From Rhizobium etli CFN 42 (GTDB taxonomy: Bacteria; Pseudomonadota; Alphaproteobacteria; Rhizobiales; Rhizobiaceae), in assembly GCF_000092045.1 (NCBI RefSeq), contig NC_007761.1:2607001-2671000 (forward strand): 64,000 nt of DNA, in the 5' to 3' direction. The position numbers and the translations under genes are program-made. Position 1 is the stretch's first letter. Each line of letters starts with the position of its first letter. The notes beneath the pieces were generated by a model. The model was not told where the DNA came from. It searched no databases and saw only the letters and a list, made by a program, of their open reading frames with translations. This document shows, in pieces, positions 10,450 to 25,394 of this stretch.

Positions 10450-10470
10450 GTCTCGCCGGCTGTTGAACGA

Positions 10471-10656: not shown

Positions 10657-10735
10657 ACTCGATCTCCTCTCGTCCGGACGAGGCTGGAGGCCCCGTTGCA
10701 GGAGGGCCGCAGCCTGAGCCGCAGCCTCTCACTCC

Positions 10736-10969
10736 TCAATTGATGGTGGCCCACTGGCTGCGAACATCCCGGGCATTCTTCGACAGGTGAACATGGGCGT
10801 CGACGTGATCGACCCAATCGAGTGGAATCAGATGATGTTTGCCGTCCTCCGAGTCAGTTTTCGTCAGCTTGATGCGGGTCGGACCGTCAAGCTGATCCAC
10901 CGTTCCGACGTGTGTGCCGTCGGCAGCCCGCACTTCCATATGTTCACGGATCTGATCTGCGGAAATCAT
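10736..10969 (-). CDS. DUF2171 protein
   Basis: A 77-residue protein starting MISADQIREHMEVRAADGTH. This is the DUF2171 pattern, a small PRC-barrel-like fold (VGTVDQLDGPTRIKLTK, HHLIPLDWVDHVD). The ATG at 10969 has a GGAGGAAA ribosome site and the family always starts at this methionine; the longer open frame to 11107 is not used. DUF2171 genes are widespread in Rhizobiales and are often stress-induced; the molecular role is unknown. Confidence 0.85.
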   Translation of the reverse strand: MISADQIREHMEVRAADGTHVGTVDQLDGPTRIKLTKTDSEDGKHHLIPLDWVDHVDAHVHLSKNARDVRSQWATIN

Positions 10970-11198
10970 CGTTTCCTCCTTTGCATCATTGGCAGTTACC
11001 AAGCGCCAACGATGGGGAGCGGAGTTGGTTCCAAGCCATCTTGCCACAGACCACATTGTGACTGTCGGTACTAAACAGATGAGGTCGGAAACAACGAAAT
11101 TTGACACGGATATGCGGTTAACGATTCACATTTCAGCTGCCCTCACCCAACACATCTCCGTGAACCCGGGCTTCCAATCCCGGAAGCGTCATGCCAGT

Positions 11199-11588
11199 AT
11201 GTGGTCTATGAATCTCCTGAAGGCCCTCCATCGCCTATTCCTGCTCGTCACGATGCTCGCGGTCATCCTTGGCCCGGCCAGCATCGGGCTGGCAGGCAGC
11301 GCCATGGCCTCTTTTTCGCCGGCGATGACTGGCGACATGAATTCCATGGCCGGAATGAAGATGGCGGAGGAGATGCCGTGCTGTCCGGAAAAGCGGCCCG
11401 TCAAGCCGGACTGTGCAAAGGGCTGCCCGCTGTCACTCGTGTGCACGACGTCGATCTTCGCTCACGTCTCCGGCGGCCACGGCTGGTCATTCGCGGTTTC
11501 ATGGCGGTCCCACCGCTACGATCTGATGCACCCGTCGCAACTGACGTCGGCCTTTGTCGATCCTCCCGCCCGCCCTCCAAAAGCCTGA
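11199..11588 (+). CDS. Small secreted Met/Cys-rich protein of the copper region
   Basis: About 129 residues. It has a signal peptide or N-terminal membrane anchor (LFLLVTMLAVILGPASIGLAG). A Met-rich stretch follows (MTGDMNSMAGMKMAEEM), then a Cys cluster CC-x8-DCAKGC-x5-C, and a Pro-rich tail VDPPARPPKA. Met and Cys clusters suggest periplasmic Cu(I) binding. It is the first gene of the copper region and shares its layout with the proteins at 17384, 19784 and 21328. The start is uncertain: ATG at 11199 or 11208. Function is inferred. Confidence 0.6.
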   Translation: MWSMNLLKALHRLFLLVTMLAVILGPASIGLAGSAMASFSPAMTGDMNSMAGMKMAEEMPCCPEKRPVKPDCAKGCPLSLVCTTSIFAHVSGGHGWSFAVSWRSHRYDLMHPSQLTSAFVDPPARPPKA

Positions 11589-11716
11589 TCTCAATTCATT
11601 CTTGAAACACGCCTGCGGTTCACACCGGACGCGCATATGCGTTCGTTGGAATCCGATGGCCATCAATTTTGCCCGAGGACGCGATCAGGAGATCCGTCCC
11701 GATGAGATCGGAAATC

Positions 11717-12121
11717 ATGAACAAGACTTCCTTTTCAGCAGGAGCGATGCTCCTTGCCGGCGCGCTGATCGTCGGCTCCGCCACCGCGTCCTACGCAGCC
11801 GCGCAGGACTATGAATTTCAACCGATTTCGACCGAGGTCAACCAGGGCCAGGGATCGCTGGTCTCCGTCCGTTTGGTCGACAAGCGGACGGGCAAGCCCG
11901 TTCCCGATGCCGTCATCTTCACCACCCGCATGGACATGGCCCCCGAGGGCATGGAGATGATGACGACTCCCGTCGAGGCGGCGGCTTCGACGGAACCTGG
12001 CGTCTACGCCTTCAAGACGGACTTCACCATGGCCGGCGGCTGGCGCTTCAAGCTCGCCGCCAAGGTCCAGGGCGAGCCGGACACCGTCCAGGGCGAACTC
12101 GTCCTGAAGGCTGCTCCTTGA
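11717..12121 (+). CDS. Secreted FixH/YtkA-like protein of the cus operon
   Basis: A 134-residue protein with a signal peptide (SFSAGAMLLAGALIVGSATA, cleavage near residue 29). A beta-sandwich-like region follows: GSLVSVRLVDKRTGKPVPDA, the Met-rich TRMDMAPEGMEMM, and TMAGGWRFKLAAKVQGE. The pattern resembles YtkA/FixH-type periplasmic domains often placed beside CusB. The methionines suit Cu(I) or Ag(I). It is the first gene of the cusBA operon: its TGA overlaps the TTG of the next gene. It may act as a periplasmic partner of the pump; this is inferred from context. Confidence 0.8.
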   Translation: MNKTSFSAGAMLLAGALIVGSATASYAAAQDYEFQPISTEVNQGQGSLVSVRLVDKRTGKPVPDAVIFTTRMDMAPEGMEMMTTPVEAAASTEPGVYAFKTDFTMAGGWRFKLAAKVQGEPDTVQGELVLKAAP

Positions 12122-13548
12122 GCACTCCATCGCGCGTGGCAGCCACGCTCTCCCTCGCCGTATTGCTCGGCGGGGGAGGCTATTGGGCTGGCACGAACAA
12201 CCTGGTCTCGTCGCTTCCCTTCGATCTGGCCGTAACGGCGCTCGCCACGCCCGCGCCCATGGCCGTCCCAACCGGAGCGATCGTCTACTACCGCCATCCG
12301 GACGGGCTGCCGCAGTTCTCCCCGACCCCGAAGAACACCGACGACAGCCGTCCCTTCGTCGCCGTGCATGCAAGCGAGGACGTGAGCTTCGAGGACGAGG
12401 CGAAAGCCCCCTCATCTACCAAGGCGGCCGATGCCGCGCCGACAGAGCCTGCCAAAGGCCGCATCCTCTACTACCGCAATCCGATGGGCCTGCCCGACAC
12501 CTCGAAGGTGCCGAAAAAGGACTCGATGGGCATGGACTACATTCCCGTCTACGAGGGCGAGCAGTCCGACGCCTCGACCGTCAAGGTCTCACTCGGCAAG
12601 CTGCAGCGCACGGGCGTGAAGACGGCAACCGCCGAGATGGCCAGCGTCGGCCGCGCGGTGCGCGTGCCGGGCACTGTGGCACTCGATGAGCGCCTTGTCA
12701 GCATCATCTCGATGCGGACGGATTCCTTCGTCGACGATGTCGCCAATGTCACGACGGGCGACCAAATCGGCAAGGGCGAGAAGCTCTTCCGCTTCTATTC
12801 CAGGGAAGTCGCGACGGCCGCCTCGGAATACGCTGCAGGCCTGAATGGCTCGCGTGGCAATGATGAAGCCTCGGCACTGCGCCTGAAGAATCTCGGCGTG
12901 CCGCCAGAGGTGATCGAAGGCATCGCGAGGACACGCCAGGTGCCGACGAGCATGACCTACACCGCCCCGCGCGATGGCATCATCCTCGAGCGCACGGCGG
13001 CTGCGGGCATGATGGCCAAGCCCGGCGACGTGCTGTTCCGCATCGCGGACGTTTCCAACATGTGGGTGATCGCTGACGTTCCCGAATACGATCTTGCCTC
13101 CGTCGCTTTTGGCGCGAAGGCGGATATTACGATCCGCAGCCTTCCCGGCAGGACTTTCCGCGGCACCGTCGACCTCGTCTATCCCGAGGTGGAGACGCAG
13201 ACGCGCACGACCAAGGTCCGCATCGAACTTTCCAACCCCGACGGCATGCTGCGCGCCAACATGTATGCCGATGTCGAGATCGAGGCGGGCGCGCCGAATC
13301 CTGTCGTCGCCGTGCCCAACAGCGCCGTCGTCGACACGGGCGACCGTCAGGTCGTCTTCATCGACAGGGGCGACGGAAAATTCGAGCCGAAGGATGTGAC
13401 CCTGGGCGTCCGCGGCGACGACAGCACGGAGATCCGGCAGGGCGTTGCCGCCGGCGACAAGGTCGTCGTCTCCGCCAACTTCCTTCTCGACGCCGAAAGC
13501 AACCTGAACTCGGCCCTCAGTGCCATGACCGAGGAGGCCAAGCCATGA
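12118..13548 (+). CDS. cusB: CusB-type efflux RND adaptor subunit
   Basis: A 476-residue membrane-fusion protein linking the inner-membrane pump to an outer-membrane channel. Two copies of a heavy-metal-binding domain lie at the N terminus: residues about 54-86 (IVYYRHPDGLPQFSPTP, degenerate) and 115-146 (ILYYRNPMGLPDTSKVPKKD then SMGMDYIPVY, intact). A barrel-sandwich/hairpin adaptor body follows. The start is TTG at 12118, overlapping the preceding stop (TTGA), and its own stop overlaps the cusA start (ATGA), so translation is coupled. The substrate is Cu(I)/Ag(I) by family. The doubled metal domain is unusual enough to note. Confidence 0.92.
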   Translation: MSTPSRVAATLSLAVLLGGGGYWAGTNNLVSSLPFDLAVTALATPAPMAVPTGAIVYYRHPDGLPQFSPTPKNTDDSRPFVAVHASEDVSFEDEAKAPSSTKAADAAPTEPAKGRILYYRNPMGLPDTSKVPKKDSMGMDYIPVYEGEQSDASTVKVSLGKLQRTGVKTATAEMASVGRAVRVPGTVALDERLVSIISMRTDSFVDDVANVTTGDQIGKGEKLFRFYSREVATAASEYAAGLNGSRGNDEASALRLKNLGVPPEVIEGIARTRQVPTSMTYTAPRDGIILERTAAAGMMAKPGDVLFRIADVSNMWVIADVPEYDLASVAFGAKADITIRSLPGRTFRGTVDLVYPEVETQTRTTKVRIELSNPDGMLRANMYADVEIEAGAPNPVVAVPNSAVVDTGDRQVVFIDRGDGKFEPKDVTLGVRGDDSTEIRQGVAAGDKVVVSANFLLDAESNLNSALSAMTEEAKP

Positions 13549-16500
13549 TCTCCCGCGTCATTTCCTGGTCCGCTCACAATCTCGTGCTGATCTTCGTCGG
13601 CGCGGCGGTCGCGGTGGCGGGTGGCATCTACGCGCTGCGCTCTCTGCCGCTCGACGCCATTCCCGACCTCTCCGACGTGCAGGTCATCGTCTACACCGAA
13701 TATCCCGGTCAGGCCCCGCAAGTGGTCGAGGACCAGGTTACCTATCCGCTAACCACCTCGATGCTGACAGTGCCGAAGTCGAAGGTCGTGCGCGGCTTCT
13801 CCTTCTTCGGCGTCTCCTTCGTATACGTGATATTCGACGACGGCACCGATCCCTATTGGGCGCGCAGCCGTGTCCTCGAATATCTGAACGCGGCCTCGAG
13901 CCGCCTGCCACAGGGTGTCACGCCGACGCTCGGTCCGGATGCGACTGGAGTGGGCTGGGTCTATCAGTATGCAGTGGTCGCTAAGGAGCTGTCCCTGGCC
14001 GAGCTGCGCTCGCTGCAGGACTGGATAGTGCGCTTTGGGGTTTCGAAGTCCGAAGGAGTGGCCGAGGTCGCGAGCGTCGGCGGCTTCGTCAAGCAATATT
14101 CCATCGTCGTAGATCCGGCCCGCCTCAAGTCCCAAGGTGTATCGCTCAACGATGTCGCCAATGCCGTGCGCGCCAGCAATATCGACGTCGGTGGCCGTAC
14201 CGTCGAACTCTCCGAATTCGAGTTCATGGTGCGCGGCCGCGGCTATCTCAAGGGCATCCCCGACATCGAGAACATCGTACTCAAGAGCCAGAATGGTGTG
14301 CCGCTCAAGCTCGGGGATATGGCGAAGGTCGAGCTCGTGCCGGATGAGCGGCGCGGCGTCACCGAGCTGAACGGCGAAGGGGAGGTCGCAAGCGGCATCG
14401 TGCTCCAGCGCTTCGGTGCCAATGCGCTCACCGTCATCGACAACGCCAAGAAGAGCCTGGAGTCGGTCAAGGGCAGTCTTCCGGCAGGAACCGAGATCGT
14501 GCCCGTCTACGACCGCTCGACCCTGATCGAAGCAGCGATCGAGACGTTGAAGGGCACGCTGGTGGAGGAATCCATCGTCGTCGCCCTGGTGACGATCGCC
14601 TTCCTTCTGCATGTCCGAAGCGCGCTCGTCGCCATCGTCATGCTTCCGGTCGGCATTCTGATTGCCTTCATCGCCATGCGGCTGCTTGGTCTCGGCGCCA
14701 ACATCATGAGCCTCGGCGGCATCGCCATCGCCATTGGCGCGATGATCGATGCCGCGATCGTCATGATCGAGAACGCCCACAAGCATCTCGAGCGGGCGCC
14801 GCCCGACAAGCTTCGGACCGAGATCCTTGTGGAGGCGGCCAGCGAGGTCGGCCCGCCGCTGTTCTTCAGCCTGCTGATCATCACCGTGTCGTTCCTCCCG
14901 ATCTTCACTCTGGAATCGCAGGAAGGCCGCCTGTTCGGGCCGCTCGCCTTCACCAAGACCTTCTCGATGGCAGCCGCAGCACTTCTGTCGGTGATGCTGG
15001 TACCCGCTTTGATGGTCGTCTTCGTCCGCGGGCATATCGTGCCCGAACAGAAGAATCCGGTGAACCGTGTCCTGATCTGGCTCTACCGCCCGGCCATTTC
15101 CGGGGTGCTCAAGGTGAAATCGCTCACGATCCTCGCCGCCGTCGCCATCCTGGCGGCGACCGTCTGGCCGGCGCACCATATCGGCAGCGAGTTCATGCCC
15201 AATCTCGATGAGGGCACGCTGATGTACATGCCGACCACCCTGCCCGGCATATCCGTCACCAAGGCTGCCGAACTGATGCAGACGCAGGACCGGATCATCA
15301 AGTCCTTTCCGGAAGTTGAAAGCGTCTTCGGCAAGGTCGGGCGTGCGCTCACCGCCACCGACCCCGCGCCAACCGAGATGTTCGAGACGATCATCACCCT
15401 GAAGCCGAAATCGCAGTGGCGGCCCAGGGTGACCACCGAAAGCCTGAAACAGGAAATGGATGCTGCCCTGCAGTTTCCGGGCGTCTCGAACGCCTGGACG
15501 ATGCCGATCCGAGCCCGCATCGACATGCTCTCAACCGGGATCAGGACCCCAGTCGGCGTCAAGGTCTATGGCACCGACCTCGGCGAGATGGAGAACATCG
15601 CCCGCCAGATCGAGGGCGTGCTGAAGACGGTCTCCGGAACGTCGAGCGCCTATGCGGAACGGGTGATCGGTGGCTATTATCTGGATATCGTTCCTGATCG
15701 TACCGCGCTTGGCCGATATGGCCTGACGGTCAGCGACATCCAGGACGTTGTCGGCATGGCGCTCGGCTCCGAGGTCGTCACCTCGACCGTCGAGGGACGG
15801 GAACGCTACGGAGTCGCGATCCGCTATCCAAGGGCCTTCCGCAGCGATCCGCAGGCGATCGCCAGGGACGTGCAGGTCTCGCTTCCCGGCGGCGGAACGG
15901 TACCGCTCGGCGAGGTCGCGGACGTGAGGCTGACCCGCGGTGCCACGACGATCCGCACCGAGAACGGCCAGCTTGCCGTCTACACCTTCGTCGACATCGC
16001 CAACCGCGATCTCGGCGGCTATGTTGCGGAAGCCCGGCAGGCGGTGTCCAAGAGCGTGAAGCTGCTGCCCGGCTATTCCGTCGCATGGAGCGGTCAGTTC
16101 GAATATCTCCAACGCGCCGAGGCGCGCCTCGCCATCGTCGTCCCCCTGACGCTGGCGCTGATCTTCCTGCTGCTCTATCTGAACTTCAAGGCGCTGACCG
16201 AGACGATGATCGTCATGCTGTCCCTGCCCTTCGCGCTCGTCGGCGGCATCTGGCTGATGTGGTGGATGGGTTTCAACGCCTCGGTAGCGGTCGCAGTCGG
16301 CTTTATCGCCCTTGCAGGAGTGGCCGCCGAAACCGGGGTGATCATGCTGATCTACCTCGAGCACGCCTTGAAGGAACAGCGCGAAGCCTGCGAAAAAGAA
16401 GACCGGCCCTTCTCGAAGCTGGACCTGAACAGGGCGATTATGGTCGGCGCGGTCGAGCGCGTCCGGCCGAAGATGATGACGGTCGTCGCCATCATGGCCG

Positions 16501-16715
16501 GTCTGGTGCCGATCCTCTGGCGGACGGGCACCGGCTCGGAGATCATGCAGCGCATCGCCGTACCGATGATCGGCGGCATGGTGTCGTCGACTTTGCTGAC
16601 GTTGATCGTCATCCCGGCAGTCTACGCATTGGTCAAGGGATGGGGGCTGCCATCCGCGTCCGCGCAGAAGCAGTCGATCGCGGAGGACGAGCGCAGTCTC
16701 GAGGCGGCAGAATGA
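13545..16715 (+). CDS. cusA: CusA-type heavy-metal efflux RND pump
   Basis: A 1056-residue proton-driven inner-membrane pump for Cu(I)/Ag(I). Motifs include the N-terminal SLPLDAIPDLSDVQVIVYTE, GAMIDAAIVMIENAHKHLE in the transmembrane relay, GSEFMPNLDEGTLMYMPTT, and a late VRPKMMTVVAIMAGLVPILW. Two sets of membrane helices flank large periplasmic loops with Met residues. Length is normal. It works as a trimer with CusB and an outer-membrane factor, here encoded separately at 22053. Long open frames on the opposite strand are compositional shadows. Confidence 0.95.
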   Translation: MISRVISWSAHNLVLIFVGAAVAVAGGIYALRSLPLDAIPDLSDVQVIVYTEYPGQAPQVVEDQVTYPLTTSMLTVPKSKVVRGFSFFGVSFVYVIFDDGTDPYWARSRVLEYLNAASSRLPQGVTPTLGPDATGVGWVYQYAVVAKELSLAELRSLQDWIVRFGVSKSEGVAEVASVGGFVKQYSIVVDPARLKSQGVSLNDVANAVRASNIDVGGRTVELSEFEFMVRGRGYLKGIPDIENIVLKSQNGVPLKLGDMAKVELVPDERRGVTELNGEGEVASGIVLQRFGANALTVIDNAKKSLESVKGSLPAGTEIVPVYDRSTLIEAAIETLKGTLVEESIVVALVTIAFLLHVRSALVAIVMLPVGILIAFIAMRLLGLGANIMSLGGIAIAIGAMIDAAIVMIENAHKHLERAPPDKLRTEILVEAASEVGPPLFFSLLIITVSFLPIFTLESQEGRLFGPLAFTKTFSMAAAALLSVMLVPALMVVFVRGHIVPEQKNPVNRVLIWLYRPAISGVLKVKSLTILAAVAILAATVWPAHHIGSEFMPNLDEGTLMYMPTTLPGISVTKAAELMQTQDRIIKSFPEVESVFGKVGRALTATDPAPTEMFETIITLKPKSQWRPRVTTESLKQEMDAALQFPGVSNAWTMPIRARIDMLSTGIRTPVGVKVYGTDLGEMENIARQIEGVLKTVSGTSSAYAERVIGGYYLDIVPDRTALGRYGLTVSDIQDVVGMALGSEVVTSTVEGRERYGVAIRYPRAFRSDPQAIARDVQVSLPGGGTVPLGEVADVRLTRGATTIRTENGQLAVYTFVDIANRDLGGYVAEARQAVSKSVKLLPGYSVAWSGQFEYLQRAEARLAIVVPLTLALIFLLLYLNFKALTETMIVMLSLPFALVGGIWLMWWMGFNASVAVAVGFIALAGVAAETGVIMLIYLEHALKEQREACEKEDRPFSKLDLNRAIMVGAVERVRPKMMTVVAIMAGLVPILWRTGTGSEIMQRIAVPMIGGMVSSTLLTLIVIPAVYALVKGWGLPSASAQKQSIAEDERSLEAAE

Positions 16716-16793
16716 AAGGAAGTGATGATGGGTGTTTAAGGTTCTCCGCCCCTAGAATCCAAGTGGCGGCGCAGACTATCCCGACAGGATTCG

Positions 16794-17453
16794 TCACTCC
16801 CCTCCATCGAATGGATCGGCCAGCGCAGCCACTGGACGGCTGATCGGGCACTTGATGACCGAGACCTTCGCTGCGAGCTTTTCGCCGCCGTTTTCCTTGA
16901 GTAGCGTACGGAAGGTCGGGTGCATCCCGCCATCCTGGTAGGCGAGCGGTATGAAGCTTTTGCCTTCCAGTTCCTTGTACTTCTGGTCATCGGCGGACGT
17001 CTTCGCGACGACTGCCGGATCGGGCTGATCGATGCGCTGAGGGCATGCTGCGAGCGGATCCGGTGGGTCGCCGTCCTTGAACTCGGCGTCGAAGATGTAC
17101 TTCCTGCTGCAGGCGGCGACCCTCGGCTCGCGGCGTCGAACTTCAAAGATGTCGTAGCCTTCCTTGAGGTTTTTCCAGAAGGCGAAATTCGGGTCGTCGC
17201 GATGGGCGGCCAGGTTCTGTGGCGTCATCCGGAACGGGTAGGCCTGCACCTGGAACGCTTGCTGCCCGCCCCTCAGGGCTTTCTCGACGACGGCGTAGAT
17301 TTCACCAACTCCCTGGTCGGTCAGGGCAAAGCACCCCGAGGACGAGCAGGCGCCATGCACCATGAGAGCCTCGCCGGAATAACCTAGCGCGGCCTCCAGT
17401 CTGTTCGGATAGCCGAGGTTGAAAAAGCGATAGGGGGACGCTGTTCGACAGGG
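16794..17453 (-). pseudogene. 5'-truncated YafK-type L,D-transpeptidase
   Basis: The frame encodes PYRFFNLGYPNRLEAALGYS, then the YkuD active-site motif MVHGACSSSGCFALTD with the catalytic Cys, and a normal YafK C terminus. It is bounded upstream by an in-frame TGA at 17454-17456. The signal peptide and the first half of the catalytic domain are missing. The break point falls inside the end of the 17384 gene, indicating a deletion or recombination junction near 17435. An internal ATG at 17361-17363 could start a 189-residue product that keeps the Cys but not a full fold, so activity is unlikely. The intact enzymes remodel peptidoglycan in the periplasm. Confidence 0.75.
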
Positions 17454-17743
17454 TCAAGAGTGCCGACGAGGGCGATGGGAGCGACGACGATAAACGTGAT
17501 GGTGTCGGGGTGCGAATAATGGGCTTCTGACGCCTGCGCGATGATGCCGTCCTGTTGGCAGTGCGTTCCCGAGATGGATCGACCATCACTGCGATGGTGG
17601 CCTTCGGAGGTCGCAGGAACACTGACGAAGACGGGAGCGGCGTGACCATGATCGGCAGGCCCGGCGATGCAGGACGCGGCAAGCGAACCCAGCAACATCA
17701 TGGTCGCGACGAAGACGTTGATCAGAAGGCGCATAGGCTCCAT
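17384..17743 (-). CDS. Small secreted His-containing protein of the copper region
   Basis: A 119-residue protein with a signal peptide (LINVFVATMMLLGSLAASC). The mature part contains scattered His and Cys (PADHGHAAP, EGHHRSDGR, GTHCQQDG, EAHYSHPD). The tail LDPVEQRPPIA resembles the Pro-rich tails of the proteins at 11199, 19784 and 21328. The last 14 residues or so are probably read-through into L,D-transpeptidase DNA after a rearrangement, so the original stop lay near RPP. Periplasmic metal binding is inferred from ligands and context; no named family is recognised. Confidence 0.6.
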   Translation of the reverse strand: MEPMRLLINVFVATMMLLGSLAASCIAGPADHGHAAPVFVSVPATSEGHHRSDGRSISGTHCQQDGIIAQASEAHYSHPDTITFIVVAPIALVGTLDPVEQRPPIAFSTSAIRTDWRPR

Positions 17744-18323
17744 TCTTGCAGGACTGGCTCCTGTTTCGGCGGCGTCATAATGATGAAGTTCGACTTTTCG
17801 GTCAACGAGAAGGCCCTAGTTTCCAGTGAAGGACGTCCAGGAGTCAGCTACGAAATCGTGTTGACTCGGAGGTTCAGAGCGATTTTCTGCCGAAAAACTG
17901 AAGATTTCTTCGAACAAAGGGAGGCCCTGACGTCCGGAAAGAAGAAGCGCGCCCGTTCCATATCGCTCTTGTTCGACGGCATTGTCTTCGCCCGAAACGA
18001 AGGGTGCGCTCCCGTGTCTTGGAAAAGGCCAATGCTTCGGCTATCGTCGCCGCCTTCCTCGCAGCTATCGTGGCTTCACACGCTCGTAGGTGGTTAGAAG
18101 TGACAACGGCCGGCATCGCGGGCCGAAAGGCGGCGGAGACCCACCCCGAGGAGTTTGCCAATGCCGACGACGAAGCGCCGACTCTCGCGATCAACGCCCG
18201 CTTCGGATTAAACGGACTGAAGGCGGAGCATAACGGGCGCGAGCCGCATGGATCTAACGTCAGGCTTGGCCCAGGCGGAAGCTTGAACAAGGCGGGCAAT
18301 TCCCGGTTCCAAGTGTTTGCCGC
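17744..18323. other. 580-base stretch without a recognised gene
   Basis: Open frames exist on both strands (for instance from an ATG pair at 17780 and from 18004), but none has a recognisable domain, signal peptide or good ribosome site. Their composition shifts along the stretch. It may be debris of a rearrangement next to the L,D-transpeptidase fragment, and it must contain the promoter of the 17384 gene on the minus strand. Confidence 0.35.
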
Positions 18324-18875
18324 TCATTCCATCCTGAATCTGGCGTGGCAGGTCGTGCAGGTCTGGAGCATGAGGTGGAACGCATGTTCCGCCGGCATCG
18401 CCAAGAGTGCCTGCTCGGTGCTGACGTGAGTGCCGAGCGGCCCGCCGCCCATGGCCTCGCCCGGCCTCATCCGCATGCCGGCCGTAATCGGTCCCGGATT
18501 CTTCTCCGCGGCGGCGTCGAGCGCGACGGCGTAGTCGCGCAAGTCGTTGGCAATGCGGTCGAACCGCTCTCGTTCCTCGAGGATGTTCGGCTTGGCCTTC
18601 GACTGCGTGCTGACGGCCTCCGAGGCGAAATGTCCGGAGAGAACGGCGCCGGACTTGTCGCGGATGACATCGGCTGCCAGTCGGAACTCGGCGGCCTTGT
18701 AGCTCGTCGGATCTTTGAACATGCCGGCGATCGTCTTCGCTGCGGCTGCCATGGCCTTCATGTCCGCCTGCCGGACGGCGACGACGTCCTCCGCAGCCGT
18801 CGACGAGATGGCAGTCAGGACTGCTCCCGCGAAGGAGAGCAGTCCGAGTCTTTTCCAATGATTGACCTGCCTCAT
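18324..18875 (-). CDS. Cytochrome c' / c556-type periplasmic cytochrome
   Basis: A 183-residue protein with a signal peptide (LLSFAGAVLTAISSTAAED). The cytochrome c' four-helix bundle has the family N-terminal pattern VRQADMKAMAAAAKTIAGMF. The haem site is near the C terminus, CTTCHARFRME, so the CxxCH motif attaches one haem c. It is the last gene of a minus-strand group with Csp, DUF305 and a Cys-rich protein (20137 down to 18324). In the copper context it could take electrons from, or report on, periplasmic copper redox chemistry, but that is inference; such proteins also bind NO. Confidence 0.88.
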   Translation of the reverse strand: MRQVNHWKRLGLLSFAGAVLTAISSTAAEDVVAVRQADMKAMAAAAKTIAGMFKDPTSYKAAEFRLAADVIRDKSGAVLSGHFASEAVSTQSKAKPNILEERERFDRIANDLRDYAVALDAAAEKNPGPITAGMRMRPGEAMGGGPLGTHVSTEQALLAMPAEHAFHLMLQTCTTCHARFRME

Positions 18876-18967
18876 CGACCCGCCGCCGTCACTAATCGAA
18901 TTCCATTATGCGTGCAACGGATATCAGTTGCCATCTGGGCAGGAAGAGGGCGAATGCCCTCCTCCGG

Positions 18968-19300
18968 TCAGGCCGCCATCTTGCGGCAGCTCTCGGCACA
19001 GCGGCGGCAGGCGTCGACGCAGCTCTGCATGTCGCCGATCCGTTCGCAGTCGTCGGCGCACTGGGCGCAGATTTCGGCGCATTCCCGGCAGACATGCTTG
19101 TGGTGCTCCGAGCCGATCAGCATGAAATGCGCAGAGGTCCGGCAGATCTCCGCGCAGACCATCATCAGCTTGAAGTGCGGGGGCTTCGTGTGCTCCCCGC
19201 CGAGTTCCAGACAATGGCCCATCGCCATTGACAGACATTCGCTATAGCAGGCTAGGCAGTTCTCGATGCAGGCCTTCATTTCAGTCGACATGTGATGCAT
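18968..19300 (-). CDS. Csp-type four-helix copper storage protein
   Basis: A 110-residue cytosolic protein without a signal peptide. About fourteen Cys residues face the core of a four-helix bundle in CxxxC spacing: ACIENCLACYSEC, VCAEICRTSAHF, HVCRECAEICAQCADDC, SCVDACRRCAESC. This is the DUF326/Csp family, which stores many Cu(I) ions per subunit. It lies 11 bases downstream of the DUF305 gene and was probably transcribed with it. The absence of a leader suggests the cytosolic Csp3 type rather than the exported Csp1 type. Confidence 0.92.
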   Translation of the reverse strand: MHHMSTEMKACIENCLACYSECLSMAMGHCLELGGEHTKPPHFKLMMVCAEICRTSAHFMLIGSEHHKHVCRECAEICAQCADDCERIGDMQSCVDACRRCAESCRKMAA

Positions 19301-19311
19301 GGCTCAATCTC

Positions 19312-19746
19312 CTAATTGGCTTCCTTGTCGACCCACTTGGACATCTCCTCGATCTCCTTTTTCTGGGCTTCGATGACCTTCCGGGCCATCTGCTTGGCCT
19401 CGTCGTTGTCGCCGTACTTGAGCTCAGCCTCCGACATGCTGATCGCGCCTATGTGGTGGGCGATCATGCCGCAGACGAAGGAGACGTCGGCGTCCTTCTT
19501 CATCATTCCCTGCATCATGTTCATGCCCATGTTCTTCATGCCTTCCATCGATGCCTTCTGGTAGTCGGTCATTTCTCCCATCTGCATGCCCGCCGCCGAC
19601 ATGTCCGTCTTCGGCATGTCCATGCCATGGGACTTGCATTTCTCCGGATAGGCCATCGTCGACTGAGCAGACGCGCCGGACGGAAGGATTACGAAGGAGG
19701 CAGCGGCGGTCGCCATGGACAGGGCAACGTTGGTGAACGTCTTCAT
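19312..19746 (-). CDS. DUF305 (CopM-like) periplasmic protein
   Basis: A 144-residue protein with a signal peptide ending at GASAQ. A Met/His-rich region follows (KSHGMDMPKTDMSAAGMQMG, then MKNMGMNMMQGMM). The DUF305 ferritin-like signature is FVCGMIAHHIGAISMSEAEL with the AHHxGA motif. DUF305 proteins such as CopM bind Cu(I) in the periplasm. Placement between a Cys-rich secreted protein and the Csp store supports a copper-buffering role. Length and layout are typical. Confidence 0.9.
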   Translation of the reverse strand: MKTFTNVALSMATAAASFVILPSGASAQSTMAYPEKCKSHGMDMPKTDMSAAGMQMGEMTDYQKASMEGMKNMGMNMMQGMMKKDADVSFVCGMIAHHIGAISMSEAELKYGDNDEAKQMARKVIEAQKKEIEEMSKWVDKEAN

Positions 19747-19783
19747 GTTTCGATCTCCGAAATTTGGTTGAGGATGGTCTGTC

Positions 19784-20137
19784 TCAGCCTTGCGGAGATC
19801 GGGGCGGCGGATCGATCGCGCGGATCAGCAGCAGCGACCGATGCACGGATGGCATCCTTTCATGCGGCCCCGGCTCGAAGCGCGGAGCCGCGAGCCCGGC
19901 AGAGTCCGGAAGGATCGGACAGCAGTGCACTGGCGAGCAGCACGCACTCTGCTGCCCGCATGCGGGTTCGGCGGAGCGATGATGCTCCGCGGCGACAGCA
20001 CAGTGCTGGCTCTGAGGGGCGGCCGGCTCCGCGCTCATGCCGAATGGATTCGCCATCACCAGTAGCGCGACTGCGACGATCTGAGCGTAGCGAGATATTC
20101 TCCCAAGTATCATTCGGCTGGTTTTCCCTTCCGTCAT
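19784..20137 (-). CDS. Small secreted Cys-rich protein of the copper region
   Basis: A 117-residue protein with a hydrophobic leader (IVAVALLVMANPFGMSA). The Cys/His cluster runs QHCAVAAEHHRS, ACGQQSACCSPVHCC, giving two vicinal Cys pairs. The tail reads IDPPPRSPQG, similar to the tails at 11199 and 21328. It is first in the minus-strand group with DUF305, Csp and cytochrome c', and faces the cytochrome b561 gene across a short spacer with a perfect palindrome. A periplasmic Cu(I) ligand role is likely but unproven. Confidence 0.6.
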   Translation of the reverse strand: MTEGKTSRMILGRISRYAQIVAVALLVMANPFGMSAEPAAPQSQHCAVAAEHHRSAEPACGQQSACCSPVHCCPILPDSAGLAAPRFEPGPHERMPSVHRSLLLIRAIDPPPRSPQG

Positions 20138-20174
20138 AGAACCGAAGGGCAGCAGAAATGTTCCGAGGACCGGT

Positions 20175-20195
20175 GATCTGGGCGGTGCCCAGATC
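20175..20195. promoter_or_regulatory. Perfect 9-bp dyad between divergent copper units
   Basis: GATCTGGGC, spacer GGT, GCCCAGATC. It sits 38 bases from the start of the Cys-rich gene (minus) and 55 bases from the cytochrome b561 start (plus). This is a good position for a dimeric regulator operator, though a short RNA hairpin is also possible. No regulator gene lies in the copper region. Confidence 0.5.
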
Positions 20196-20249
20196 GAGAA
20201 AACGTTAACCGCCTTCGGCTAGTCTGCGTTTCTCACGTGGGAGGGATCG

Positions 20250-20768
20250 ATGAAAGGCGGCTATTCGCTCGCCCAGATAGGACTTCACTGGCTGGTCGCC
20301 CTCCTGGTGCCGCTGCAGTACCTGACGGGCGGCAGCATCGAGAGAACCCACAACGCCGTGCACATGGGCATGGGGCCGTCGTACTGGGACACCGTTCAGC
20401 ACCACCTTCACAACTACGCTGGAATGGCGATCGGTCTGCTGATGGGCATGCGTCTGGTTTTCCGTCTCGTGCAGCCGCCCCACGGAAGCGCACCCGGCAC
20501 GTGGACCGGGCGGGCCGCAACAGTGCTTCATCATGCGTTCTATGCTGCGATAATCGCGCAGGCCTGCATGGGATTCGTCGCCAGCTACTTCTGGTTCGGA
20601 ATTGCGCCGTATCATGTCGCGGGGTCGAGGATCATCCTGGCGATGGTCGCGCTGCACCTCGCCGCGGCGGCCTGGCACACGCTCATCGCCCGTGACGCGA
20701 CAGTCGATCGGATGGTCTTCCCGCGCGGGAAGCCGTCAGCCCACGAACTGCAAAGTGGCCAGCGTTAA
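20250..20768 (+). CDS. Cytochrome b561-family membrane protein
   Basis: A 172-residue inner-membrane protein with four helices. Haem-ligand histidines are seen in IGLHWLVALLVP, VQHHLHNYAGM, HHAFYAAIIAQA and VALHLAAAAWHTL, as in the bacterial b561 (YceJ/CybB) family. GTGGGAGGG precedes the ATG. It moves electrons between quinol and a periplasmic acceptor. Being placed in a copper region and divergent from a copper-binding group suggests a link to copper redox state, which is inferred. Its 3' end overlaps the convergent yqaA remnant by 33 bases. Confidence 0.88.
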   Translation: MKGGYSLAQIGLHWLVALLVPLQYLTGGSIERTHNAVHMGMGPSYWDTVQHHLHNYAGMAIGLLMGMRLVFRLVQPPHGSAPGTWTGRAATVLHHAFYAAIIAQACMGFVASYFWFGIAPYHVAGSRIILAMVALHLAAAAWHTLIARDATVDRMVFPRGKPSAHELQSGQR

Positions 20769-21178
20769 AACGACATAGCGGCCCGTCTTGGCGACGAACA
20801 CGATGATGGTGAACGGAAGCAGCGGCTCCCGGAGCACTCCGGCGACAACCGTGAGAGCGTCTCCAAAGACCGGCATCCAGGAAAGCAGCAGCGTCCACTT
20901 TCCGTATTTCCTGTACCAGCGGGACGAACGTTCCAGCGCCTCCTCCCGGCCGGAAACCATCGTCGATCCCGAAACCTTTCGAGGCCCCGGCCGAGGAACC
21001 AATTGACGATGCTTCCAAGCGTGTTTCCGACGCGGGCGACGGCGAGCAGAACCAGGACGGAGAATTTGCCTGTGAGAAGAAGGCCGACCAGCACGGGCTC
21101 CGACTGCATCGGCAGTATCGTCGCCGCCCCAAGGGCGGCAGTGAAAAGGCCTGTGTAGGATGCAAGATCGATCATCAT
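20736..21178 (-). pseudogene. Frameshifted YqaA/DedA-like membrane protein
   Basis: The first half (MIDLASYTGLFTAALGAATI, then GNTLGSIVNWFLGRGLERFR, RRWFP) and the second half (REEALERSSRWYRKYGKWTL, MPVFGDALTVVAGVLREPL) together match one YqaA-type protein of about 145 residues. They lie in different frames. The change is near 20945-20955, where one base appears to be lost in a GGCCGG-rich spot. Without that base the protein would be complete. YqaA/SNARE-associated proteins are small inner-membrane proteins of unclear function. The lesion could be real or a sequencing error. Confidence 0.8.
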
Positions 21179-21327
21179 CAAAAATGAACAGCCCGTATTG
21201 ACCTTGCCAGCGTTGGAAGCCCTAGCTGTGCACAACGTGATGTTCGCGCCACATAAAGGACTCGAACATCGACGAGACATAGCTCCCTAATTGAAATCGC
21301 GCTGCTTTGCATGTAGCTCGTTTGGGA

Positions 21328-21735
21328 ATGGACAGAATGTACCGAATCACAGTGAGCAGGCTGCTCTTGATGATGCGGCTGGTGATCATCGTATCACTGG
21401 CGGGGTACTCGCTGTCGAACGCCAACGCCGCGATGCATGGCTCCTTGTTTCCCGAGATCAAAATCGTGTCCACGGACGTGATGCCTTCCCATGAAGGTCA
21501 CGACATGGCGGCGGTTGCCGATCACGATCATTCGCATGGCGGCATGTCTCATAATGGCGATGGCGCGTCGAAGCTCGTCAAGCAGGAATGCTGCAAGGAC
21601 TTCTGCGGCGGCTTTGGCATCATCTGCGAGGGCCCCGACGTCGGCGGACCCGTCGTGACCTCGATCCGGCAGTTCGCCGACGACCGTACGACCCTCGGCG
21701 AACTGCCGGATCTCCACCGTCCCCCGAATATCTGA
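21328..21735 (+). CDS. Small secreted His/Cys-rich protein of the copper region
   Basis: About 135 residues. A hydrophobic leader (LLLMMRLVIIVSLAGYSLS) ends near NANAA. A His cluster follows (SHEGHDMAAVADHDHSHGG), then CC-x3-C-x6-C (ECCKDFCGGFGIIC), and the tail PDLHRPPNI. It resembles the 11199 protein in order of elements. It may start at 21328 or 21337 (both ATG). A dyad GATGTTCG/CGAACATC (21239-21246, 21263-21270) lies upstream. It probably belongs to the copper response; no family name is recognised. Confidence 0.6.
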   Translation: MDRMYRITVSRLLLMMRLVIIVSLAGYSLSNANAAMHGSLFPEIKIVSTDVMPSHEGHDMAAVADHDHSHGGMSHNGDGASKLVKQECCKDFCGGFGIICEGPDVGGPVVTSIRQFADDRTTLGELPDLHRPPNI

Positions 21736-21828
21736 TTAGAGACGCACCCGCTTGACCGGGTCCAGTCGGTCGCCTGCCTGCATCTTGGCGGGCGCCTCCG
21801 TAGGCTATCTCTTTTTCGGAAATTCATA

Positions 21829-22056
21829 ATGAAACCCTCGCTTTTCGTGGTGGGGCTGCCGCTTGTTGTTGGCGGCTGCGCATCCACGCTTCCTCCCGAC
21901 GTGGTGGCATCCTCCGCCGCGATCGAACAGCCTTCCGCCCGCCCGGTGGCATTCCGGTCGCCGATCTCGGGCTACGTCGCCAGGCAGCCCGTCGATCCCA
22001 AGCCGTGGCGCAGACAGAACGATCTGCAGTCTCCCGCGAAAGGAGACGGCTCATGA
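21829..22056 (+). CDS. Small lipoprotein preceding the outer-membrane efflux gene
   Basis: A 75-residue protein with lipobox VVGGCAS (Cys at residue 17). The mature part is short and polar, ending in PVDPKPWRRQNDLQSPAKGD. Its TGA overlaps the ATG of the TolC-like gene (ATGA), so translation is coupled. The PKPWRRQND segment resembles small lipoproteins next to copper efflux outer-membrane factors in other rhizobia (from memory). It may help assemble or anchor the channel. Confidence 0.7.
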   Translation: MKPSLFVVGLPLVVGGCASTLPPDVVASSAAIEQPSARPVAFRSPISGYVARQPVDPKPWRRQNDLQSPAKGDGS

Positions 22057-23519
22057 TCGGCCTTAAGAAATTGACAACGGTGCTGGCATTCCCGCTGGTA
22101 CTGAGCGGCTGCGTCACAGGCACCGAGTACTCCGGCAAAGAGGCGGGCTTTACCACCGTTTCCAACAAGACCGCCATTGCCACGGCGAAGCAGACCGTCT
22201 GGATCCAGAACCAGAGCCAGGCCAGGTCGGCGTCGGCGCAGGTCAAAAGCCTGCTTGTTCAAAAGAAGTCCCTCGATGTGGAGACGGCGGTCCAGATCGC
22301 CCTCCTTAACAACAAGGGCCTGCAGGCGGCCTACGCCGATCTCGGCGACAGCGCGGCGGATGCCTGGCAGTCGACGATGTTCATCAACCCGACCGTCTCC
22401 ATCGGCACGACGGGCATGGGCACCCCGGAACTGGAGGCGTTCAAGACCATCGAGGGGATGATCACCACCAACATCCTGGCGCTCGCGACCAAAAACAGGG
22501 ACATCGCGATCGCCGACACCCGCTTTAGCCAGGCGCAGTTGACTGCGGCGGTGAGAACGCTGCAGGTCGCCGCCGATACGCGGCGTGCCTGGATCGGCGC
22601 GGTGGCGGCCTGGGAGAGCGTCGGGCAGCTCCAGCGTGCCCAGGCGGCGGCGGATGCAGCCTCGGAACTCGCTGAAAAGCTGGGCGAGACAGGCGCGATG
22701 ACCAAGGGCGCCCAGGCCCGCGAGCATGTGTTCGTCGCCGAACTCGCCGGAGAGACGGCGAAGGCCCGCCTGGCTGCGCGGCTCGCCAAGGAGGAGCTGA
22801 CGCGGCTCATGGGTCTATGGGGCTCCGACCTTGATTACCAGGTTCCAAACAGCCTGCCGTCCCTACCGAAATCCGTGGTCAAACGGGACACTATCGAGGC
22901 CGAGGCTCTGAGGAACCGGATCGACCTCCAGGTCGCGAAGCTCGAACTCGAAGCCACCGCCAGGTCCTACGGACTGACGGAAGCGACACGCTATGTCACC
23001 GATCTCGAGATCCTGACCGGCTTTGAAACGGAACGGGAAATCGAGGACGACGAAAAGAAGACAAGGACAACCGCCCAGGTCGAGCTGGAGTTTGTCATCC
23101 CGATCTTCGATACCGGAAAGGCCCGGATGCGCAAGGCCGAGGTGGCGTACATGCGCGCCGCGAACCAGCTTGCGGAGAAGGCGGTCAACGTCCGCTCGGA
23201 GGCGCGCTCCGCCTACGAGGCATATCGCTCGAACTACGACATCGCCCGGCATTACCGCAATAATGTCGTGCCGCTGCGCACCAAGGTCGAGGAGCAATCC
23301 CTGCTGACCTACAACGGCATGATCACCAACACCTTCGAGCTGCTGACCGACACGCGCGACAAGATCAACTCCATCCTGCTCTCCGTCAACGCGAAGCGCG
23401 ACTTCTGGCTCGCCGAAGCCAATCTTGCGCCCGCGATCTATGGCGGCGGAGCGTCGAACGCGTCAGCAGAAACAGAAGTCGCCGCTGCTTTCGAAAGCAG
23501 CGGTAGCGGCGGCCATTGA
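22053..23519 (+). CDS. TolC/CusC-type outer-membrane efflux protein
   Basis: A 488-residue protein with a lipoprotein leader (LKKLTTVLAFPLVLSGC, lipobox LSGC). Two outer-membrane-efflux repeats follow, rich in heptads: LDVETAVQIALLNNKGLQAA in the first and VELEFVIPIFDTGKARM in the second. AGGAG precedes the ATG at 22053. It would be the outer-membrane channel for the CusBA pump encoded at 12118-16715, although it lies in a different operon with the copper oxidase. The ending AFESSGSGGH is low-complexity. Confidence 0.9.
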   Translation: MIGLKKLTTVLAFPLVLSGCVTGTEYSGKEAGFTTVSNKTAIATAKQTVWIQNQSQARSASAQVKSLLVQKKSLDVETAVQIALLNNKGLQAAYADLGDSAADAWQSTMFINPTVSIGTTGMGTPELEAFKTIEGMITTNILALATKNRDIAIADTRFSQAQLTAAVRTLQVAADTRRAWIGAVAAWESVGQLQRAQAAADAASELAEKLGETGAMTKGAQAREHVFVAELAGETAKARLAARLAKEELTRLMGLWGSDLDYQVPNSLPSLPKSVVKRDTIEAEALRNRIDLQVAKLELEATARSYGLTEATRYVTDLEILTGFETEREIEDDEKKTRTTAQVELEFVIPIFDTGKARMRKAEVAYMRAANQLAEKAVNVRSEARSAYEAYRSNYDIARHYRNNVVPLRTKVEEQSLLTYNGMITNTFELLTDTRDKINSILLSVNAKRDFWLAEANLAPAIYGGGASNASAETEVAAAFESSGSGGH

Positions 23520-23533
23520 GAAAGGACCTCACC

Positions 23534-24880
23534 ATGTTCAACAGACGACAACTGTTCGGAGCAAGCGCGGCCCTGCTGGCGGCGGGCGCCTGGACGAAGA
23601 CCTCGGCCATGGCCCTCCCCGACGCGCCGACAATGGACTCGGCAGACATGCAGCCGCCGCTCCACCCGACCTCGGGACCGGACTACCAGCCGGTCGTCAC
23701 CCTTAACGGCTGGACCCTGCCCCACCGGATGAACAATGGCGTCAAGGAGTTCCACCTCGTCGCCGAGCCGGTCGAACGCGAGATGGCCGACGGGATGACA
23801 GCCTATCTCTGGGGATACAATGGGCAGTCTCCAGGTCCGACGATCGAGGCGGTCGAAGGCGACCGGGTGCGCATCTTCGTCACCAACAAGCTGCCGGAAC
23901 ACACGACCATCCACTGGCACGGCATGATCCTGCCATCGGGCATGGATGGTGTCGGCGGACTGACGCAGCCTCATATCCCAGTCGGCAAGACCTATGTCTA
24001 CGAGTTCGACCTCGTGAAGTCCGGCACCTTCATGTATCACCCGCATTCCGACGAGATGGTGCAGATGGCCATGGGCATGATGGGCTTCTTCGTCGTCCAT
24101 CCCAAGGATCCGAAGTTCATGCGGGTCGACCGCGACTTCGTCTTCCTGCTCAACGCCTATGACATCGATCCCGGCTCCTATGTGCCGCGCATCATGGAGA
24201 TGACCGACTTCAACATGTGGTGCTGGAACAGCCGCGTGTTTCCGGACATCAGCCCGCTGGTCGTGTCGAAGAACGACAGGGTGCGCGTGCGCGTCGGCAA
24301 TCTGACGATGACCAACCACCCCGTCCACATGCATGGGTACGACTTCGAGGTGACATGCACGGACGGCGGCTGGGTGCGGCCGGAAGCGCGATGGCCGGAG
24401 GTCAGCATCGACATCCCGGTCGGGGCGATGCGGGCCTACGAGTTCGACGCGAAGTATCCTGGCGATTGGGCGATCCACTGCCACAAGTCGCATCACACTA
24501 TGAACGCGATGGGTCACGACATTCCGACCTTCATTGGAGCTGACAAGTCGAAGGTGGCTGAGAAAATCCGGAAGCTGCAACCGGAATACATGCCCATGGG
24601 CACCAAGGGCATGGCCGACATGGGCGAAATGGAAATGCCCATTCCCGACAACACCGTCCCAATGATGACCGGGTGGGGCAAGTACGGCCCCATCGAAATG
24701 GGCGGCATGTTCTCGGTCGTGAAGGTCCGCGAGGGCATCTCGGCGGACGACTACTCCGATCCGGGCTGGTACGAAAACCCGCCCGGAACGCAGGCCTGGG
24801 AGTGGACCGGCGAACTGCCCGACGCGACCAAGGCCAAAGACGCAAAGACGCAGATCACCCCGCAGCCGGTCAAAGGATGA
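23534..24880 (+). CDS. Multicopper oxidase, copper resistance type
   Basis: A 448-residue periplasmic oxidase. The leader MFNRRQLFGASAALLAAGAW has a twin-arginine motif, so folded export by Tat is likely. Copper ligands appear in the four canonical blocks: HWHGM, HPHSDEM, HPVHMHG and HCHKSHHTMNAMG, giving type 1 and trinuclear sites. Met-rich loops (MVQMAMGMMGFF, MADMGEMEMP) point to Cu(I) oxidation. It oxidises toxic Cu(I) to Cu(II). The ATG at 23534, after AAAGGAC, is preferred to the ATG at 23516, which would bury the Tat motif further in. Confidence 0.93.
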   Translation: MFNRRQLFGASAALLAAGAWTKTSAMALPDAPTMDSADMQPPLHPTSGPDYQPVVTLNGWTLPHRMNNGVKEFHLVAEPVEREMADGMTAYLWGYNGQSPGPTIEAVEGDRVRIFVTNKLPEHTTIHWHGMILPSGMDGVGGLTQPHIPVGKTYVYEFDLVKSGTFMYHPHSDEMVQMAMGMMGFFVVHPKDPKFMRVDRDFVFLLNAYDIDPGSYVPRIMEMTDFNMWCWNSRVFPDISPLVVSKNDRVRVRVGNLTMTNHPVHMHGYDFEVTCTDGGWVRPEARWPEVSIDIPVGAMRAYEFDAKYPGDWAIHCHKSHHTMNAMGHDIPTFIGADKSKVAEKIRKLQPEYMPMGTKGMADMGEMEMPIPDNTVPMMTGWGKYGPIEMGGMFSVVKVREGISADDYSDPGWYENPPGTQAWEWTGELPDATKAKDAKTQITPQPVKG

Positions 24881-24914
24881 CGGCTCGACACCTCCCAACC
24901 GCAAAGGAACTGAA

Positions 24915-25394
24915 ATGAAGAAACTCGTAATCGCAGCCGTGCTCGCGGCGCTAGCAACCCCGGCGCTCGCTTCCGGCAATCACCCCGGCGGCCATGGCGA
25001 GAAGATGGCCATCGGAGAGCCAGGCGACAAGGCGAAGGCCACGCAGACTATCCGCGTCACGATGAAGGAGACCGACGACGGCAAGATGCTGTTCACTCCT
25101 GCCGTCTTCAACGTCCGCAAGGGGCAGACGGTCAAGATCGCCATCAAGAATGCCGGAACGGTCGACCACGAGTTCGTGCTCGATCAGGAAGACAAGATCC
25201 TGGAGCACAAGAAGGTCATGGAGAAGTTCCCGGAAATGGAACACGCCGATCCCAATTCCATCCGCCTCCCGGCCGGTCAATCCGGCGAGATCGTCTGGAA
25301 GTTCACCACCGACGGCGCGTTCAAGTTCGCCTGCCTGATTCCCGGCCACTACGAAGCAGGCATGCACGGCGACGTCACCGTCGCTGGAAAGTAA
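24915..25394 (+). CDS. Periplasmic cupredoxin
   Basis: A 159-residue protein with a signal peptide (KKLVIAAVLAALATPALASG). The type 1 copper fold is seen from about residue 45. FNVRKGQTVKIAIKNAGTVD is followed by HEF with the first His ligand, and the C-terminal loop FACLIPGHYEAGM supplies Cys, His and Met. It resembles plastocyanin-like proteins of the CopI type. It lies 34 bases after the oxidase and probably takes electrons or copper from it. Operon with CusF follows. Confidence 0.9.
   Translation: MKKLVIAAVLAALATPALASGNHPGGHGEKMAIGEPGDKAKATQTIRVTMKETDDGKMLFTPAVFNVRKGQTVKIAIKNAGTVDHEFVLDQEDKILEHKKVMEKFPEMEHADPNSIRLPAGQSGEIVWKFTTDGAFKFACLIPGHYEAGMHGDVTVAGK

Follow-up and report, generated by a model that had tools for sequence, protein, structure and literature searches.

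Introduction

The copper-responsive protein CutF of R. capsulatus (cutFOG) has to be translated and is active only in cis, as described in PMC9973294; its export, its Cys motif and its proline-rich end PEPEGPPPRL are needed, and a stem-loop hides the Shine-Dalgarno site of cutO (PMC9973294, PMC8456105). The idea put forward for CutF in 2021 was of the buffer or chaperone type (PMC8456105), and it was replaced in 2023 (PMC9973294). CutF-like proteins are a class with an architectural definition, and their first list was divided into 29 clusters (PMC9973294); their genes are reported at about two per genome, typically in distinct neighbourhoods, with 31 cases near copper oxidases in Rhizobiales (PMC8456105). 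Here we compare with this class four short open reading frames (ORFs) of leader type, named A, B, C and D, that lie at positions 11199–21735 of a 64,000-nucleotide stretch of Rhizobium etli CFN 42 (contig NC_007761.1, positions 2,607,001 to 2,671,000; hereafter the window).

A, C and D, and also B before it was broken, are probably CutF-like leader peptides that act in cis and sense copper, rather than copper stores. The features that they share with CutF of R. capsulatus suggest that A, C and D are copper-induced switches, each acting on the gene behind it. Computation shows the order of the genes and the conservation of tail and spacing, and it supports a helix in the messenger RNA (mRNA) with two matching sides, strongly in D and moderately in A but not significantly in C as a family.

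Four reading frames of one build

A six-frame scan of the window for ORFs of 61–150 amino acids (aa) with a hydrophobic leader and two consecutive prolines (PP) within the last 18 residues (368 short ORFs) gave six matches, and the four of these with at least four Cys/His in 25 residues were exactly A, B, C and D. Twenty shuffled windows averaged 0.45 matches and never exceeded 2, figures to be taken as a description with a control and not as a blind test, since the limits (18 residues, four Cys/His) were chosen with the four ORFs known. Across the whole genome the pattern R-P-P-x-x-TGA occurs 209 times, against 49 for the reversed control; among 100 sites inspected, four close a leader-like ORF, of which A and D alone look credible by eye. 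The first-pass annotation had placed four ORFs with a leader, a Met/His/Cys cluster and a proline-rich end around a copper island. The ORFs are present as it described them, the common build is borne out by a scan that returns just these four, and the link to copper is right, copper genes being adjacent. Its view of the tails as conserved also holds, with the correction that C ends in PPPRS rather than in an RPP motif. The probable start of A, judged from its homologues, is at 11208 (Table 1).

As far as sequence can tell, the four match the published rule-based definition of CutF-like proteins, B only through its relatives. All are below the length limit (<150 aa; Table 1) and carry a signal peptide under a hydropathy rule. 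PP falls within the last 15 residues in A, C and D; the deletion described below has left it 16–17 residues from the end of B in the window, and it is within the last 15 in 6/6 intact B records. A gene on the same strand follows within 1000 nucleotides (nt) in A (gap of 128 nt), C (37 nt) and D (93 nt), while B is followed by a gene remnant here and by an ORF at 36–37 nt in its relatives. Each intact leader is predicted to head an operon, which is ytkA-cusB-cusA for A and copM/DUF305-DUF326 for C, while D precedes genes for a lipoprotein, an outer-membrane efflux protein (OEP), a multicopper oxidase and a cupredoxin.

Conserved tail and spacing

Distances were taken from the 120 listed of 322 D homologues, the 120 listed of 648 A homologues and all 59 of C. 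Among the matches listed, PP stands exactly two residues before the stop codon in 120/120 D and in 107 of the 108 A proteins measured. The spacing between the Cys cluster and PP is 38–39 residues in 120/120 D, 42–44 in 108/108 A and 36 in 45 of the 46 C proteins measured, a count that leaves out 12 A and 13 C proteins without the core or tail expression. By comparison, the distance from the N-terminus to the ligands is variable (s.d., standard deviation, of 5.7 in D, 11.2 in A and 16.7 in C), partly through start-codon annotation. The fixed spacing is partly inherited, the sequences being related, and the internal control is this variable N-terminal stretch, whose start codons are themselves uncertain.

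Ratios of non-synonymous to synonymous substitution (dN/dS) of 0.26–0.57, obtained by a rough method in five pairs of close relatives, support translated proteins under selection. An AlphaFold2 model of D shows a single leader helix (residues 3–27) and an otherwise unstructured chain, with a mean predicted local distance difference test score (pLDDT) of 54.6. The predicted disorder would be more in keeping with a transient sensor than with a store that folds, and it is weak evidence because the model was built from few sequences (16).

A predicted mRNA helix over the next Shine-Dalgarno site

RNAalifold applied to 13 D loci gives a helix that closes the intergenic region, with the stop codon on one side and the Shine-Dalgarno region of the following gene on the other. 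When the same 13 loci were aligned a second time, without L016–L018, 92.1% of cells were paired, against 27–51% with slid versions of the structure; the covariation score was matched by none of 500 shuffles, and the cells changed on both sides by two of 500. A loci carry a like helix of different sequence, such as one of 14 base pairs (bp) in L027, and the pairing bases of C in the window are the tail codons directly after PPP. The RNA set was formed without L037 (a fragment with stops), L024 (whose frame ends early), L010 and L015 (where no lipoprotein start was found) and L023.

Shuffling of single loci gave p ≤0.05 at 21 of 33 loci (D 12/16, A 4/8, C 4/8, B 1/1). Own duplexes averaged −14.5 kcal/mol and reassigned ones −10.0 kcal/mol, with no reassignment in 5000 as strong (25 loci, the close relatives L002, L007, L008, L009, L014, L020, L025 and L032 being set aside). 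Taken by family, reassignments were as strong in 0 (D) and 43 (A) of 5000; own pairs beat reassigned ones strongly in D and moderately in A, and not significantly in C as a family. When a ribosome was simulated as a mask, the Shine-Dalgarno site was clearly freed in D only (from 0.05 to 0.39).

With the P-site codon set at the first residue of the final PP, the anti-Shine-Dalgarno bases lie at about +9 to +16 nt in 14/16 D, 4/8 C and 3/8 A loci, an apparent geometry that was spotted post hoc. C and D of the window fall in this range and A of the window does not; B loci place these bases at +5 to +10 (4/5) or at +11 to +14 (1/5). The proline motif of C lies 9 nt further from the stop codon, and the distance to the anti-Shine-Dalgarno bases is nonetheless alike in half of the C loci.

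Proposed mechanism

Copper binding, ribosome pausing and the direction of control would, by analogy, be those of CutF. The ribosome would make the peptide while the Sec system exports that same peptide, and the Cys/His/Met cluster, on arriving in the periplasm, would meet copper, by which export would be held back. The ribosome would then dwell on the proline motif (RPPIAS in B, PPPR in C, xRPPxx-stop in A and D), close to the stop codon. There it would cover or open the helix through which bases around the tail or stop codon mask the Shine-Dalgarno site of the following gene, and copper-defence genes would be translated only when copper is sensed in the envelope. With no copper, the peptide would be completed, exported and degraded, and the helix would re-form.

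A further reading, possible but rather doubtful, is that sensors assembled separately have converged on one geometry, with the anti-Shine-Dalgarno some 10–15 nt downstream of the P-site codon of the proline motif whatever the distance to the stop, because the leading edge of the paused ribosome would have to sit there. Under the same reading B would add a cell-wall enzyme controlled by a sensed metal, and the island would have held four periplasmic sensors of metal, each tuned independently, with one under a cytoplasmic gate of CueR type. The distance between proline motif and anti-Shine-Dalgarno makes a sharp prediction that is cheap to test.

B and the ldtF-like gene

A deletion at 16764–17425 (minus strand), which removed about 490 bases that Rhizobium sp. 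CF122 (L039/L054) has at this locus, truncates both B and the ldtF-like gene that follows it. The comparison with CF122 shows that B reads on, after RPPIA, into the following gene but not in the frame of that gene. The tail given for B in the first-pass annotation needs correcting: the 13 residues that follow RPPIA here are the product of the deletion, which fused B out of frame into ldtF. In 6/6 intact records (CF122, R. sullae, T136, T1473 and two R. phaseoli plasmids) the tail reads RPPIAS[V/D]-stop.

The ORF that follows intact B in the six records has 358 aa and was checked against profiles in two of them. That of CF122 scores 210.7 bits to NF040599, under the model cut-off of 365, and is of the LdtF/DpaA/YafK type; matches to YkuD are weak for the ORFs of CF122 and R. 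sullae. Searched from the ldtF side, the 30 best loci include a credible leader at CF122 only, the match at L183 looking spurious; such leaders are thus not general before ldtF, and the pairing of B with ldtF is rare. B itself was found in 2/151 genomes of the family (that of the window included), at two loci of the species collection and in 7 of 72,556 plasmid records, four of the seven having been examined.

The ligand cluster of B is rich in His and has a single Cys. CutF-like proteins with His-only motifs adjoin HupE/UreJ genes linked to nickel and cobalt, according to PMC9973294. At the R. sullae locus (L055, 260–2534) B and ldtF stand beside genes that by eye resemble thiamine-synthesis genes, away from copper genes. 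The His-rich cluster, the HupE/UreJ precedent and the R. sullae surroundings suggest that B may sense a metal other than copper. If the pairing is functional, B would tie metal stress in the envelope to peptidoglycan or lipoprotein attachment through an enzyme of the L,D-transpeptidase family, and the class of such leaders would widen from metal genes to cell-wall enzymes.

Weighing of the explanations

Several observations weigh against a cis-acting copper switch. PP is missing from the last 15 residues in 2/120 A and 4/59 C homologues listed, and the leader calls rest on a hydropathy rule. The D structure was derived from the very sequences that were scored, most stop-codon columns are invariant and so uninformative, and the number of D pairs changed on both sides was equalled in 93 of 500 shuffles and that of further pair types in 229 of 500. 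Twelve of the 33 loci are ordinary in single-locus shuffles, D of the window among them (p 0.080), the reassignment test is not significant in C (464/5000 as strong), and a wider 5' window led to another pairing being preferred in 5/8 A loci, A of the window included. Masking by a ribosome moved the accessibility values little in A (0.13 to 0.20) and C (0.26 to 0.32) and lowered them in B (0.26 to 0.20). Moreover, the tail of CutF alone, in the absence of the copper motif, gave no stall in the LepB test described in PMC9973294.

The four proteins had been taken by the first-pass annotation for periplasmic copper buffers or chaperones, whose conserved proline-rich tail would dock on a pump or an oxidase. 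Their mature parts are rich in ligands, copper genes adjoin them, and such a function was the first idea published for CutF (PMC8456105); however, CutF supplied in trans fails (PMC9973294), D is predicted to be unstructured, and docking predicts neither the conserved position at the head of an operon, before one gene, nor the fixed distances of the tail to stop codon and ligands, nor the pairing with the Shine-Dalgarno site, all of which fit control in cis. On these grounds, a role as buffer or chaperone is unlikely.

It is common for translation to be coupled through helices that mask a Shine-Dalgarno site, and the peptides could be small secreted proteins of an ordinary kind that share a transcript with copper genes, their helix serving plain coupling with no sensing of copper. 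The weak helix signal in C and the few loci in B would suit this explanation, which we hold to be quite unlikely in view of a Cys/His cluster conserved at a fixed distance from a conserved proline motif. A switch of the CruR type would work in the opposite sense: scarcity of copper makes the ribosome stall at the tail, whereas copper relieves the stall and lets Rho end transcription, so that expression falls. Its architecture is related and its arrest was demonstrated in vitro (PMC12992588), but neither RAPP nor CXXC is conserved in the A, C and D families, and repression of defence genes by copper would make little sense, so that we give this possibility very little credence. The CutF-like, cis-acting switch is the explanation that we hold probable for A, C, D and the intact form of B.

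Family membership

That A–D are one family that diversified, as the first-pass annotation proposed, is unsupported. Profile-profile comparison gave 75% for A and D over 28 columns of the Cys region only, and at most 15% for all other pairs (a weak test for B, whose profile has two rows only); a single homologous family was rejected for want of significant similarity over most of the length. Kinship with DUF2946, suggested in the same annotation, was a fair lead that does not amount to membership, scores to PF11162 being under the cut-off. None of A–D in the window matches PF11162. Six of 16 rows of the D family match it weakly (best E 0.011), and the unrelated LAX is equally weak on three rows (0.0077). 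Of eight further D homologues three match, the best with E 0.0054 and 17.9 bits where the cut-off is 23.7. Source databases tag some A, C and D homologues as 'DUF2946 domain-containing'; a scan of ten A and C homologues, tagged ones included, gave one match (E 2.6).

Three known families were considered and rejected. DUF2946/CruR membership was set aside on scores below the gathering threshold and on the absence of conserved CXXC and RAPP from the A, C and D family alignments. For the CopL family (NF033807), D scores 14.5 bits against a cut-off of 40, and A, B and C give no match. As to arrest peptides of the RAPP class (R-A/G-P-P or R-x-P-P/G), the four of the window and the commonest tails of their families have xRPPxx or PPPR.

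Class-wide homologue searches in 289 genomes (that of the window included, with at most 14–16 candidates scored per genome) added little beyond the family: D was found in three genomes, C in two and A in nine. D homologues occur in 128 of 72,556 plasmid records.

Gene neighbourhood and transcription signals

The first gene behind each leader recurs in relatives. A YtkA gene follows A in seven of eight relatives tested, the eighth having DUF411; a DUF305 gene follows C in 7/7; and, among 17 relatives of D, an OEP gene lies behind it in 9/10 tested, the tenth having a cupredoxin. At L023 an A homologue has a DUF411 gene behind it in place of YtkA, which suggests re-use of the leader with other metal genes. 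As cusB and cusA lie in the A run and the OEP gene in the D run, parts resembling CusCBA appear to be divided between two gene runs, each led by a peptide.

A, C and D are clustered in some other genomes (for example within about 6.6 kb of each other in G003 and within 5.1 kb in G120, which has a truncated A), and the cluster is broken elsewhere (A more than 20 kb off in G103; C on a separate contig in G128). R. johnstonii 3841 carries the C-DUF305 pair on pRL11; together with the gene for the four-helix copper protein, the pair is close to cueR and a metal P-type ATPase gene. The A homologue of G120 (L024) has a frame that stops before the proline tail, with 43% identity over residues 3–94, and is possibly a decayed leader.

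The CueR/MerR-type site upstream of D, which we presumptively assign to that type, has a similar counterpart in 6/18 D loci, as a near-perfect palindrome in two. The same pattern is absent from the 260 bases upstream of the A, B and C loci. The strict palindrome pattern has no match in the window, and the looser pattern has seven, against 2.4 expected, one of them within the island. The D operon may also be under a CueR-type promoter, by which copper would be checked a second time, in the cytoplasm. Scans of sigma-70 promoters and terminators gave chance levels, and window positions 8000–26000 gave no match in Rfam.

Table 1. Positions in the window of the four leader ORFs, their pairing elements and the adjacent genes
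Feature	Position	Strand	Description
A ORF	11199..11588	+	129 aa; Met-rich stretch; CCP-x8-C-x3-C-x5-C; tail VDPPARPPKA-TGA
A helix (predicted)	11585..11711	+	CTGATCTCA at stop codon (11585–11593) with TGAGATCGG (11703–11711), just 5' of ytkA start 11717; shuffle p 0.050
ytkA-like gene, first after A	11717..12121	+	Pfam YtkA, 9e-22
cusB-like adaptor	12118..13548	+	profile match
cusA-like heavy-metal pump of the resistance-nodulation-division (RND) type	13545..16715	+	TIGR00914, 1208 bits
ldtF/dpaA-like remnant (YafK-type L,D-transpeptidase family)	16794..17363	-	lacks N-terminal part; NF040599 profile positions 132–224 of 242 only
B ORF	17384..17743	-	119 aa; end replaced; deletion junction at about 17423–17425, behind the true tail LDPVEQRPPIA
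Cytochrome c'-like gene, C gene run	18324..18875	-	profile match
DUF326/Csp-like four-helix copper protein, behind C	18968..19300	-	profile match
DUF305/CopM-like metallochaperone, first after C	19312..19746	-	profile match
C helix	19751..19801	-	perfect 9 bp; CGATCTCCG (tail R-S-P codons, 19801–19793) with CGGAGATCG (DUF305 Shine-Dalgarno region, 19759–19751); shuffle p 0.003
C ORF	19784..20137	-	117 aa; ligands of CC-x3-HCC type; tail IDPPPRSPQG-TGA
CueR/MerR-type operator-promoter-like site, 5' of D	21198..21219	+	looser pattern match
D ORF	21328..21735	+	135 aa; His-rich stretch, CC-x3-C; tail LHRPPNI-TGA
D helix (predicted)	21731..21820	+	TCTGA..AGAGA (stop codon and next bases) with TCTCT..TCGGA (Shine-Dalgarno region, 21816–21820); inner hairpin in relatives
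Lipoprotein-like ORF, first after D	21829..22056	+	75 aa; in 16/18 D loci
OEP (CusC/TolC type), D run	22053..23519	+	profile match
Multicopper oxidase, D run	23516..24880	+	profile match
CopI-like cupredoxin, D run	24915..25394	+	profile match

Divergent from D, a gene of the YqaA family (DedA-like) at 20735–21280 (minus strand) appears by eye to be frameshifted, with its halves in two overlapping frames; related plasmids have an annotated YqaA family protein at the matching place. Window positions 11000–25400 have partial matches in 269 of 72,556 plasmid records, from many rhizobia and others, none of which covers 80% in one place. The copper island itself lies here on a 4.38-Mb contig.

Comparison with known systems

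The likeness to CutF-like proteins is one of architecture: short chains with a leader, a Cys/His cluster and PP in the last 15 residues, encoded on the same strand 5' of copper genes. A helix that hides the next Shine-Dalgarno site, as described for CutF, is supported for D and less firmly for A; in C it is perfect in the copy of the window and not significant as a family, and B offers few loci. The PPPR tail of C resembles the GPPPRL of CutF, and the neighbours of CutF-like genes given in PMC9973294 include OEP, ACR_tran and HlyD_D23, as near the leaders of this island. The ligand motifs differ, being CC-x3-C, CC-x3-HCC, CCP...C...C and HC here and CXXXC in CutF. The partner of B is a gene of the L,D-transpeptidase family, a kind unnamed in the main text of PMC9973294; DUF305, YtkA and transpeptidase do not occur in that main text, the supplementary neighbour lists lying outside the search, and in the part of PMC12992588 consulted DUF305 and transpeptidase do not occur either. 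Among the titles listed in literature searches on copper leaders, none was a study of leaders of this kind in a Rhizobium island, and a listing on copper and L,D-transpeptidases contributed nothing here. D-type leaders have probably been seen in bulk surveys, given the 31 Rhizobiales cases near copper oxidases (PMC8456105).

CruR, the DUF2946 upstream ORF of B. pertussis, shares with these peptides the leader ORF, the metal ligands, a proline motif near the stop codon, a fixed ligand-to-tail spacing and a copper operon (as described in PMC9426467), whereas its RAPP and CXXC are not conserved here, its spacing is 45 against 34–44, and the opposite effect of copper is expected. CopL of Xanthomonas and Stenotrophomonas, as reported in PMC9973294, is likewise a small copper regulatory protein encoded 5' of copper genes and inactive in trans. 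Arrest peptides of the RAPP class (SecM, ApdA, ApdP and the RQH family, as presented in PMC10987492 and PMC12992588) also have a C-terminal Arg/Pro tail after an export signal in an upstream ORF; the Arg of the present tails immediately precedes PP (xRPP) or follows it (PPPR), which differs from R-x-PP, and copper genes follow in place of Sec/YidC.

Four 'hypothetical proteins' beside Rhizobium copper genes thus become predicted cis-acting switches, and anyone who would clone them as copper chaperones is forewarned. The authors of the CutF study left open how copper bound outside the membrane is signalled to the ribosome inside (PMC9973294), a question for which the D homologues would be a tractable set. 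The kind of leader was already known; what this locus adds to it are these members, the ldtF partner, the apparent geometry between proline motif and anti-Shine-Dalgarno, and four leaders in 10.5 kb, a dense arrangement given the two or so CutF-like genes typical of a genome (PMC8456105).

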